Positions 42,452-45,177 of a stretch of DNA of 62,348 nt are shown here, one piece after another. The stretch is from Balneolaceae bacterium. Lineage in GTDB: Bacteria; Bacteroidota; Rhodothermia; Balneolales; Cyclonatronaceae. The stretch covers positions 1-62,348 of the forward strand of contig RECM01000197.1 of NCBI GenBank assembly GCA_007694035.1, read 5' to 3'. The first letter of the stretch is position 1, and every line of letters starts with the position of its first letter. The notes under the pieces are model-generated. The model was not told where the DNA came from. It ran no database searches and was given only the letters and a program-made list of their open reading frames with translations. A program made the translations under genes and the position numbers.

Positions 42452-42862
42452 CATTCCCGTACAGCCCGGTTGATCAGCGATTGGCAACTTTATGCTCCAT
42501 AGCCGGTAAGACTGTGCCGGTGTGCCGGTTACAATCACAGGTTCCAGCTAATTAAGAATAACCGTTCCGGAAAGATAGGCGGAAATGGCGCTGTCATAAG
42601 TCCTTTTTTTATGTGATGCAGCCCTGATTTTTAACAGAAAATGCCTGTTTTCATGGCCTGGATGTTATCATTTCGACACAAATTTAAGTTTTTTATATAT
42701 TTATGACATTTAAGTGTCGAAGCGCTTCCCAACCGCATCTTGATTAAGAAACATTGCATAATAATCGTAATTTATTTAGGCATAAACATCTTTTTACCTA
42801 ATTATTTTACTGCCCCTCCGGGCATAATCTATGCACATGTGAACTTATTTGTATAGAAAGGG

Positions 42863-43108
42863 TTGACATGTTGTGCCGAATTGACAATACTACAGCCGGA
42901 CAACACGCCTGATCTTAATCAACGCTGCTTGGATACTCAGAACACATATAACCGCAACATCCCGAACGGAAATCCGACTTCCGCGGGCAATACTGTGGTT
43001 TCTGCTGTCCCTGCCTTCAATGGTGCCACCCCCGACATCATTATCAGCATTATTATTATCAGCCTACTAGTCCTAGGGATTTTCTCTGAGCTAATTATTA
43101 TTAGCTGA
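42863..43108 (+). CDS. probable branched-chain amino acid leader peptide for the ilv-leu operon (start codon uncertain: TTG/GTG only)
   Basis: Ends DIIISIIIISLLVLGIFSELIIIS*, upstream of ilvB; dense Ile, Leu, Val codons just before stop at 43108. Confidence 0.65.
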   Translation: MTCCAELTILQPDNTPDLNQRCLDTQNTYNRNIPNGNPTSAGNTVVSAVPAFNGATPDIIISIIIISLLVLGIFSELIIIS

Positions 43109-43220
43109 AATAAAGAGGTCATCCCTTAGCCTGCCTTCCGCAACACTGCATTCTCACTCACTTACAAGACAAGCACCAAGGGTTGACCTCAGAAGAAAAC
43201 TGTGAACTTCATAAGGTCAA
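43089..43220 (+). promoter_or_regulatory. candidate attenuator RNA with alternative pairings
   Basis: AGCTAAT-TATT-ATTAGCT hairpin (43089-43106); GAGGTCATCCCTT (43115-43127) pairs with AAGGGTTGACCTC (43178-43190, one mismatch); TTGACCT (43183-43189) alternatively pairs with AGGTCAA (43214-43220). Confidence 0.55.
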
Positions 43221-43410
43221 AAATGCAAAACCAACGAATCAAAAACGGAACACCCAAAGGCTCTACGCCGGCAATTACGGTACTGTATCCAAATTCTGAC
43301 AGTGATTTACTACGCTATGCCCGCTGCTGCATGATCCAAACCGGAGACTTTTTAACCGGTTTTCACCGATAAATCCGATATCACTTCACCGATTCAAAAC
43401 ACCCATCATT

Positions 43411-45177
43411 ATGTCCGTCACAGTAAAAACATCACAACAGGCTCAGGTAAAAACTGAAACAAACGGCCACGCTGCAGGAATTACCACCAAAACAATGACC
43501 GGCGGCGAGATTCTCATTCAAAGCCTTATTGATATGGAAGTCGATACGGTTTTTGGCTATCCCGGTGGTGTGGTGCTCGGGGTTTACGACGATCTCTACA
43601 GGCATCCGGAACTCCGGCACATTCTTGTTCGCCATGAACAGGGCGGCACCCATGCCGCCGAAGGCTATGCCCGAATGACCGGAAAACCAGGCGTTGTGCT
43701 GGTCACATCCGGGCCCGGCGCCACCAATACGGTTACCGGCATCGCCAATGCCTACATGGATTCCATCCCCATGGTCATTTTTACAGGCCAGGTGCCATCT
43801 ACCATGATCGGCAACGACGCGTTCCAGGAGGCCGACATTGTGGGCATCACCCGGCCGATTACCAAGCACAGTTATCTGGTTAAAAAGGTTGAAGACCTGC
43901 CGAAAATTATCCGTGAGGCGTTTCATATAGCCGCCACCGGCCGTCCCGGACCTGTACTGGTGGACCTTCCCAAAGACATGCTTTTCAGCAAAGGTGAGTA
44001 TCAGAAGAATCATCCTATTAAAATTCGCGGTTACCACCAGGAGGTGGATGGAAACGCCGCACAGATCCGGAAAGCAGCCGAACTGATCCGTGTGGCAGAA
44101 CGTCCGCTGATCTATGCCGGTGGTGGTGTGGTAACCGGCGAGGCCTGGGAAGAGCTCCGTGAGCTGGCATACAAAACGGGTATTCCCGTAACCACAACCC
44201 TTATGGGCCTGGGAACCTTCCCGGAATCGCATCCCCAGGCACTGGGCATGCTGGGCATGCACGGCACATGGTACGCCAACATGGCGATTCAGAGCTGTGA
44301 TGTGCTCATTGCCGTGGGAGCCCGATTCGACGACCGTGTTACCGGCCGTGTGAAGGACTTCTCCCCCCTTTCCCGCAAAATTCATATCGACATTGATCCC
44401 GCCTGTATCAATAAAAACGTGGAAGTGGAAGTACCGGTAATCGGCCATGTGAAAAACGTACTCACACAGCTCATACCGCAGGTAGGAAAAGCCGAAATAA
44501 GCGGTTGGATCAGCCAGCTTGATACCTGGAGAAAAGAACATCCGCTCAGGTGCCCGATGGAGAAGGATGTGATCACCCCCCAGTGGATGATCCGCCGGAT
44601 TTCAGAATTCACCAATGGTGATGCCATCGTGGTTACCGATGTGGGCCAGCACCAGATGTGGGCGGCCCAACACTACACCTACAACCATCCGCGCTCCTGG
44701 ATATCCTCGGGCGGGCTTGGTACTATGGGTTTCGGCTTCCCGGCGGCAATGGGTGCCAAGATCGCCTGCCCCGACCGCGAGGTGGTTTGCATTACCGGCG
44801 ACGGCGGATATCAGATGACCACCTTTGAGCTGGCAACGGCCGTTCATTACAAAGTGCCCGTGAAGATTGCCATTATGAACAACGGCTACCTCGGCATGGT
44901 AAGGCAGTGGCAGCAGCTTTTCTACGGCGGGCGCTACTCCCACTCCCACCTGGCTCCGGCCAACCCCGATTTCGTGAAGATGGCCGAAAGCTATGGTGCA
45001 GTCGGCATGCGGGCCCGTACCCCGGAAGAGCTCGACAAGGTGCTCGAAGAGGCCATGAAGATTACCGATGTACCGGTGGTGATGGATATCGTTGTGCCGG
45101 AGGGTTATAACGTATATCCGATGATCCCACCCGGAGCGGCTGTACACGAAATGGTTGAAGAAGACCCCAAACCCTGA
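43411..45177 (+). CDS. ilvB: acetolactate synthase large subunit
   Basis: [66 protein letters not shown], ThDP motif [29 protein letters not shown]. Confidence 0.98.

Follow-up and report, generated by a model that had tools for sequence, protein, structure and literature searches.

We analyzed a window of 62,348 nucleotides (the whole stretch of DNA under study, contig RECM01000197.1 of a Balneolaceae bacterium) in which a branched-chain amino acid operon begins on the forward strand with ilvB, the gene for the acetolactate synthase large subunit (43411..45177; NCBIfam TIGR00118, 854 bits). Behind ilvB we identified ilvN, ilvC, citramalate synthase, 2-isopropylmalate synthase, a gene of the isopropylmalate dehydratase large subunit family and leuB, in the order ilvB-ilvN-ilvC-cimA-leuA-(leuC-like)-...-leuB. 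An earlier sequence-only reading had proposed a stalling leader peptide in front of such an operon, and both the operon and the frame to which it pointed are present. The frame occupies 42863-43108 of the forward strand, ends with DIIISIIIISLLVLGIFSELIIIS immediately before the stop codon, and is separated from the ilvB ATG at 43411 by 302 nt, in line with the distance of about 300 nt that had been claimed. As that reading had also stated, the frame contains no ATG; its in-frame starts are TTG 42863, TTG 42881, TTG 42929 and GTG 42995. The claimed concentration of Ile, Leu and Val codons before the stop holds as well. These amino acids account for 16 of the final 24 codons (regulatory codons, 43034..43105, forward strand; ATT eight times, ATC three times, CTA four times and GTC once), which ranks the frame first when all stop-ended frames in the window with 24 codons or more (1,508) are compared; the runner-up has 13. 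A short ORF with a run of end-product codons thus precedes an operon that makes the same amino acids (ilvB-N-C, citramalate synthase, leuA and leuB). Another frame across the run, starting at ATG 43020, was set aside, as it has only 16 codons and fewer relevant ones.

The leader probably starts at TTG 42929 and not at 42863, so that the frame of the earlier reading stands and its start does not. This placement follows from an in-frame TGA immediately upstream of the equivalent TTG in a genome of the same genus (G001), which leaves a 59-codon frame, from the ATG found 60-62 codons upstream of the leader stop in relatives of a sister family (f3), and from a likely -35 box at 42863. TTG 42863 was rejected as a start, since it forms part of this TTGACA and, in G001, a stop codon cuts off the upstream part of the frame. 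The resulting leader ORF (42929..43108, forward strand) comprises 59 codons with a TTG start and a TGA stop, and an equivalent frame exists in 45 Balneolales loci. TTGACA at 42863-42868 is followed after 17 nt by AATACT at 42886-42891; together the two hexamers agree with the sigma-70-like consensus in 10 of 12 positions, and both are identical in G001. They probably constitute a promoter (42863..42891, forward strand) with a transcription start expected near 42898, and because of this conserved match the stretch 42863-42897 probably lies outside the transcript. Farther upstream, about 120-175 nt 5' of the promoter, a block TTTTTTATATATTTA.GACATTTAAGTGTC.AAGCGCTTCCCAACCGCATC was observed at 42689-42740 of the window and at the same place in locus L030. 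Nearly identical in both species of the genus, while the DNA after it has diverged, it is a possible regulator site. Upstream in L025-L027, a GGAAGCGCTTTT block was seen.

Conservation of the leader was examined across ilvB genes of Balneolales, which fall into two types: type A is 65-72% identical to the window ilvB and type B 44-47%, the latter sitting behind ilvD at the loci examined for gene order. The Ile/Leu/Val tail is present in every type-A Balneolales locus with enough upstream DNA (45 of 45, namely a set of 26, L032 and 18 more; L032 and L113 apparently derive from one genome), and the leaders end 68-412 nt upstream of the start of the ilvB match. When the window is compared with G001, the tail is almost constant, its few changes remaining hydrophobic (F to I, I to L), and the N-terminal half of the leader drifts while the tail is kept, both in this comparison and in the 26-locus set. 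The alignment of relatives that had been suggested as a check on the leader therefore came out in its favor. No such leader was found before any of the 12 type-B ilvB genes checked; in type-B locus L163, a chance run of 10 such residues in 15 lies inside a frame that overlaps the upstream gene. Besides, four genomes of the window's own family (G006-G009), estimated to be 93-100% complete, have no match to a biosynthetic ilvB, which suggests that part of this family has lost branched-chain synthesis.

Codon choice in the tail differs sharply from that in ilvB. Within the last 24 codons of the 45 leaders, CTA makes up 74% of Leu codons compared with 2% in ilvB, and ATT makes up 85% of Ile codons compared with 42%. 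Such an extreme synonymous bias points to codons rather than the peptide as what is sensed. The enterobacterial leu attenuator is alike in this respect, as its Leu control codons are the rare CUA, the replacement of which by CUG lowered sensitivity (PMC1183508). The same bias bears on whether the tail could be a sequence-specific nascent-chain arrest peptide of the SecM/TnaC type, sensing a small molecule instead of codon supply. Motifs near the end do recur within lineages (SGLLILIK, DLLIGIL, SGILILNLII), as expected of such a peptide; yet they vary between lineages and coincide with an RNA pairing segment (segment 1, below), Ile, Leu and Val are freely exchanged, and the codon bias favors codon sensing, so we regard an arrest peptide as very improbable.

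Four RNA segments capable of alternative pairing, all on the forward strand, were delineated between the tail and the next start codon. Segment 1 (CTAGGGATTTTCTCT, 43073..43087) lies inside the regulatory codons and pairs with segment 2 (AGAGGTCATCCCTTAG, 43114..43129), located just 3' of the leader stop, in a duplex of -15.6 kcal/mol. Segment 2 can pair instead with segment 3 (AAGGGTTGACCTC, 43178..43190; 2:3 duplex, -24.6 kcal/mol), and segment 3 alternatively with segment 4 (CTTCATAAGGTCAA, 43207..43220). The partner of segment 4 is 43183-43195 (TTGACCTCAGAAG), and the segment ends 2 nt before the ATG at 43223. For a swap test, pairing partners were exchanged between genomes at 27 loci, and cognate and non-cognate energies were compared with 20,000 permutations. 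The cognate combinations were more stable for 1:2 (-18.6 vs -13.5 kcal/mol), 2:3 (-26.2 vs -21.7 kcal/mol) and 3:4 (-16.0 vs -12.6 kcal/mol, with segments 3 and 4 overlapping by three bases in this 27-locus test), a difference reached in 0 of 20,000 permutations in each case. No cognate advantage was seen for the control pairings 1:3, 1:4 and 2:4 at the same 27 loci, and since these have the same ancestry, relatedness is ruled out as the cause of the co-variation. The result holds when each of 15 genera is represented by a single sequence and the segments no longer overlap: the median permutation fraction is 0 and the worst fractions are 0, 0 and 0.002, compared with control medians of 0.16 to 0.90.

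Pair counting in an alignment of 27 sequences (A1) likewise revealed that 82.6% of cells in the 2:3 helix are paired and that 18 cells have changed on both sides, compared with 9.0 in shuffles (0 of 500); sliding one partner along lowers pairing to at most 48%. RNAalifold on the full alignment returned only 5 pairs, because loop lengths differ among the loci. Mutually exclusive pairings that co-vary and overlap the regulatory codons are therefore a property of this region. Together with the conserved tail and the CTA preference, they support the leader-peptide interpretation of the sequence-only reading, and the element is very probably a ribosome-mediated leader-peptide attenuator of the ilv-leu operon. 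At the gathering score, Rfam 15 has no match to the leader region of the window or of ten relatives; with E values up to 10, only chance snoRNA and lncRNA matches appear in the region.

Of 61 genomes searched with a covariance model built from segments 2 and 3, 28 gave a match, at one locus each. Matches were reported on both strands in five genomes, because the element is nearly palindromic. Wherever ilvB is assembled, the match lies at the leader site before it, and the match in G004 falls at a contig end. The model has no match in G006-G009, which belong to the same family and lack ilvB, or in type-B genomes, and it missed one divergent type-A locus (L021, in G059). These results can be set against a reading of the frame as a small hydrophobic membrane protein whose tail is a membrane segment and whose proximity to ilvB is incidental. 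The tail is indeed hydrophobic, its length is close to that of a membrane helix, and the peptide has no Pfam family match, but rare CTA codons are selected in the tail, co-varying RNA pairs overlap its codons, the N-terminal part is not conserved, and each genome has a single locus, in every case ahead of the first ilv gene; a membrane protein is thus the least credible of the explanations considered, and extremely unlikely.

We then compared this arrangement with the enterobacterial leu, ilvGMEDA and ilvBN attenuators, which are alike in having a leader rich in end-product amino acids and competing pairings ordered 1:2, 2:3 and 3:4. The difference lies in what follows. No U-tract is present 3' of the 3:4 pairing, and no conserved intrinsic terminator was found between the leader stop and ilvB, where a hairpin with a T-rich stretch occurs in only 3 of 59 loci and at unrelated places. 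The likeness to enterobacterial ilv attenuators that had been claimed therefore extends to the leader peptide, with its tail, codon bias and co-varying pairings, but not to the layout, which has no U-tract terminator. Here, moreover, segment 4 abuts a start codon, the leader runs to about 60 codons and starts with TTG, GTG or ATG, and the regulatory codons reach the stop.

The missing terminator is meaningful because U-tract terminators are recognizable in the same order: in type-B Balneolaceae operons, a U-tract attenuator was detected before ilvD in 10 of 10 sampled loci (L187-L196). The type-B leaders are short (for example MLSTVISLVIIRVIGIQYRPGRLCSK and MLSIIISLVIIQVIGIPYQPGKVL) and unlike the type-A leader, and their hairpin (for example AAGCCTTCCC..GGAAGGC) is followed by at least six T, typically nine, before ilvD. 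As judged from its sequence, the type-B element is a textbook transcription attenuator, separate from and unrelated to the type-A element; none of the described families matched it here. A classical intrinsic-terminator attenuator like those of the enterobacterial ilv operons would account for the Ile/Leu/Val leader and for mutually exclusive 1:2, 2:3 and 3:4 pairings in the classical order. Considering that 3:4 has no U-tract, that the terminator-like sites are confined to the three loci and differ in place, and that this order does build U-tract attenuators elsewhere, such a mechanism is improbable for the type-A element, which is very likely a leader-peptide attenuator without an intrinsic terminator.

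Further examination of the region behind the switch focused on start codons. An AUG lies 9-43 nt 3' of segment 3 in 22 of 26 loci and is ilvB's own start in 12 of them, and L011 has no AUG near segment 4. In the window, the AUG behind segment 4 opens ORF2 (43223..43372, forward strand), a 49-codon frame whose ATG directly follows the segment. This frame is a candidate relay ORF or second leader, and from its ATG it is another 188 nt to ilvB. The position of this ATG is conserved in G001 and the sequence is not; a 7-nt indel and the lack of sequence conservation relative to G001 give no support to ORF2 as a conserved protein in the window's genus. The recurrent placement of a start codon behind segment 3 suggests that initiation there is the regulated step. 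In 24 of 26 loci, the start region is predicted to be more open when 2:3 forms (0.65 vs 0.49). The effect shrank to a small one when non-cognate and shuffled versions of segment 3 served as controls: openness is 0.57 with a cognate segment 3, compared with 0.62 for a non-cognate one (P = 0.014, 17 of 23 loci), and most of the start-opening effect is generic, because a non-cognate segment 3 closes the start nearly as much.

Small ORFs at this place were also observed in other genera. Genus g9 (L002 and L003) has an ORF2 between segment 4 and ilvB, with a GTG start 21-25 nt 3' of segment 3. The two proteins are 53% identical, sharing the pattern MN-I--HN--I-C-SRN-LKR---CD, and their genes differ by many synonymous changes; because of this protein-level conservation, the g9 ORF2 is probably translated. 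In genus g13 (L005, L006, L007 and L012), all four loci have an ORF2 of 25 codons, and three of these end in YSI before the stop. The ORF2 stop codon overlaps a CATCTG that could base-pair with the CAGATG around the ilvB start, as though ilvB were opened when ORF2 translation terminates.

Four things were shown by computation: the leader frame, the bias in its codons, co-variation of the three pairings, and the lack of a conserved terminator. From these we propose the following mechanism. A leader of about 59 residues would be translated from TTG 42929, its last codons being mostly those for Ile (ATT) and the rare Leu codon CTA. If charged Ile or Leu tRNA were short, the ribosome would stall in the codon run and cover segment 1; segment 2 would then pair with segment 3, the 3:4 pairing would be blocked and the operon would be expressed. 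With an ample supply, the ribosome would depart, 1:2 would form, 3:4 would form beside the next start codon, and expression would be low. A stall in the last Ile or Leu codons would cover segment 1 and free segment 2 in every genome. A simple response is not assured, since 145 Ile/Leu codons are positioned to mask segment 1 and 151 lie further upstream, where stalls would leave it free. From this arrangement we infer, with reasonable confidence, that stalling occurs and that it turns the operon on through 2:3.

As there is no U-tract, the final step would not be intrinsic termination but lowered translation initiation at the AUG behind segment 4, which is that of ilvB in many relatives and that of ORF2, and then ilvB, in the window. 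We infer, leaning only slightly this way, that the output is translation initiation rather than transcription. Rho may afterwards end transcription of the untranslated message. Rho could also be the output itself: with the same leader and switch, termination between the leader stop and ilvB would be Rho-dependent, and the ribosome position or the choice between 2:3 and 3:4 would decide whether Rho loads on a C-rich, G-poor stretch. The lack of a conserved intrinsic terminator (only the 3 of 59 loci above) agrees with this, as does the excess of C over G seen between leader and ilvB at 55 of 59 loci (mean asymmetry 0.17 vs 0.00 in ilvB coding sequence), and mycobacterial cys leaders without terminators have tentatively been explained in the same way (PMC1262725). 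Nevertheless, C richness is weak evidence because Rho sites are not reliably recognizable by sequence, and Rho alone leaves the co-variation of 3:4 and its adjacency to the start codon unexplained. Rho-dependent termination is the main rival for the output, rather unlikely but with a real chance of being correct.

The same layout was found outside Balneolales. Among other Rhodothermia it occurs in 11 of 28 sampled ilvB loci, and additionally in L037 and L050; there, segment 2 reads GGTCAATCCC and segment 3 GGGATTGACC, or each a close variant. Among the ilvB loci examined from other phyla, a stop-proximal run followed by this hairpin was detected in Rhodothermales, in Rhodothermus and in a single Ignavibacteria genome, and in no others. 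One Ignavibacteria locus (L049) looks similar. Of ten Rhodothermia in which another gene directly precedes ilvB, eight have the leader in front of ilvD; therefore, the element travels with the first gene of the operon. A small GGGG-TTGAC-CCCC hairpin, made of segments 3 and 4, is frequent a short distance ahead of the ilvD start in ilvD-first loci of Rhodothermia (L177-L184). It is conceivable, at slightly less than an even chance, that throughout Rhodothermia, and possibly in Ignavibacteria too, the attenuator acts on translation initiation: a stall at rare CTA/ATT codons would switch the four-segment RNA and thereby open the next AUG, be it the start of ilvB, of ilvD or of a relay ORF whose translation is coupled to that of ilvB.

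Several described systems share parts of this design. The ilvB-II motif of Corynebacterium, the ilvB-OMG motif and the Leptospira ilvB motif are RNAs before ilvB with a branched-chain-rich upstream ORF, and ilvB-II has been reported to act by transcription attenuation (PMC10272879); no Rfam model matches this region of the window or of the ten relatives, and the known ilvB motifs are covered by this comparison if Rfam contains them. The actinobacterial LEU element before leuA and the mycobacterial cys leaders have an ORF of end-product codons and no obvious terminator (PMC1262725), but LEU is a pseudoknot in Actinobacteria, whereas four segments with linear alternative pairing are found here in Bacteroidota. 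In the erm translational attenuators, a stall in the leader rearranges the RNA and frees the downstream start, and a second small ORF may take part (ermBL with the second leader ermBL2; PMC8274638). The erm signal is an antibiotic together with peptide-specific arrest, whereas a shortage of charged tRNA is proposed here. We found no open-access paper and no Rfam family describing amino acid operons of Balneolales or Rhodothermia that are controlled through a leader peptide. Leader-peptide attenuation itself is known, and the form seen here has no intrinsic terminator.

The element is an old RNA switch with strong co-variation that nevertheless does not have the terminator by which the textbook form is defined, although that form is also present in the same order. 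It allows a direct test of leader-peptide stalling that is read out without an intrinsic terminator. Bacteroidota mostly lack Shine-Dalgarno sites, and the element also allows a test of how starts are gated where translation does not depend on Shine-Dalgarno pairing. If the proposed mechanism is true, it would represent an attenuator that senses codons and controls the translation of an amino acid operon, in bacteria where initiation mostly proceeds without Shine-Dalgarno sites.
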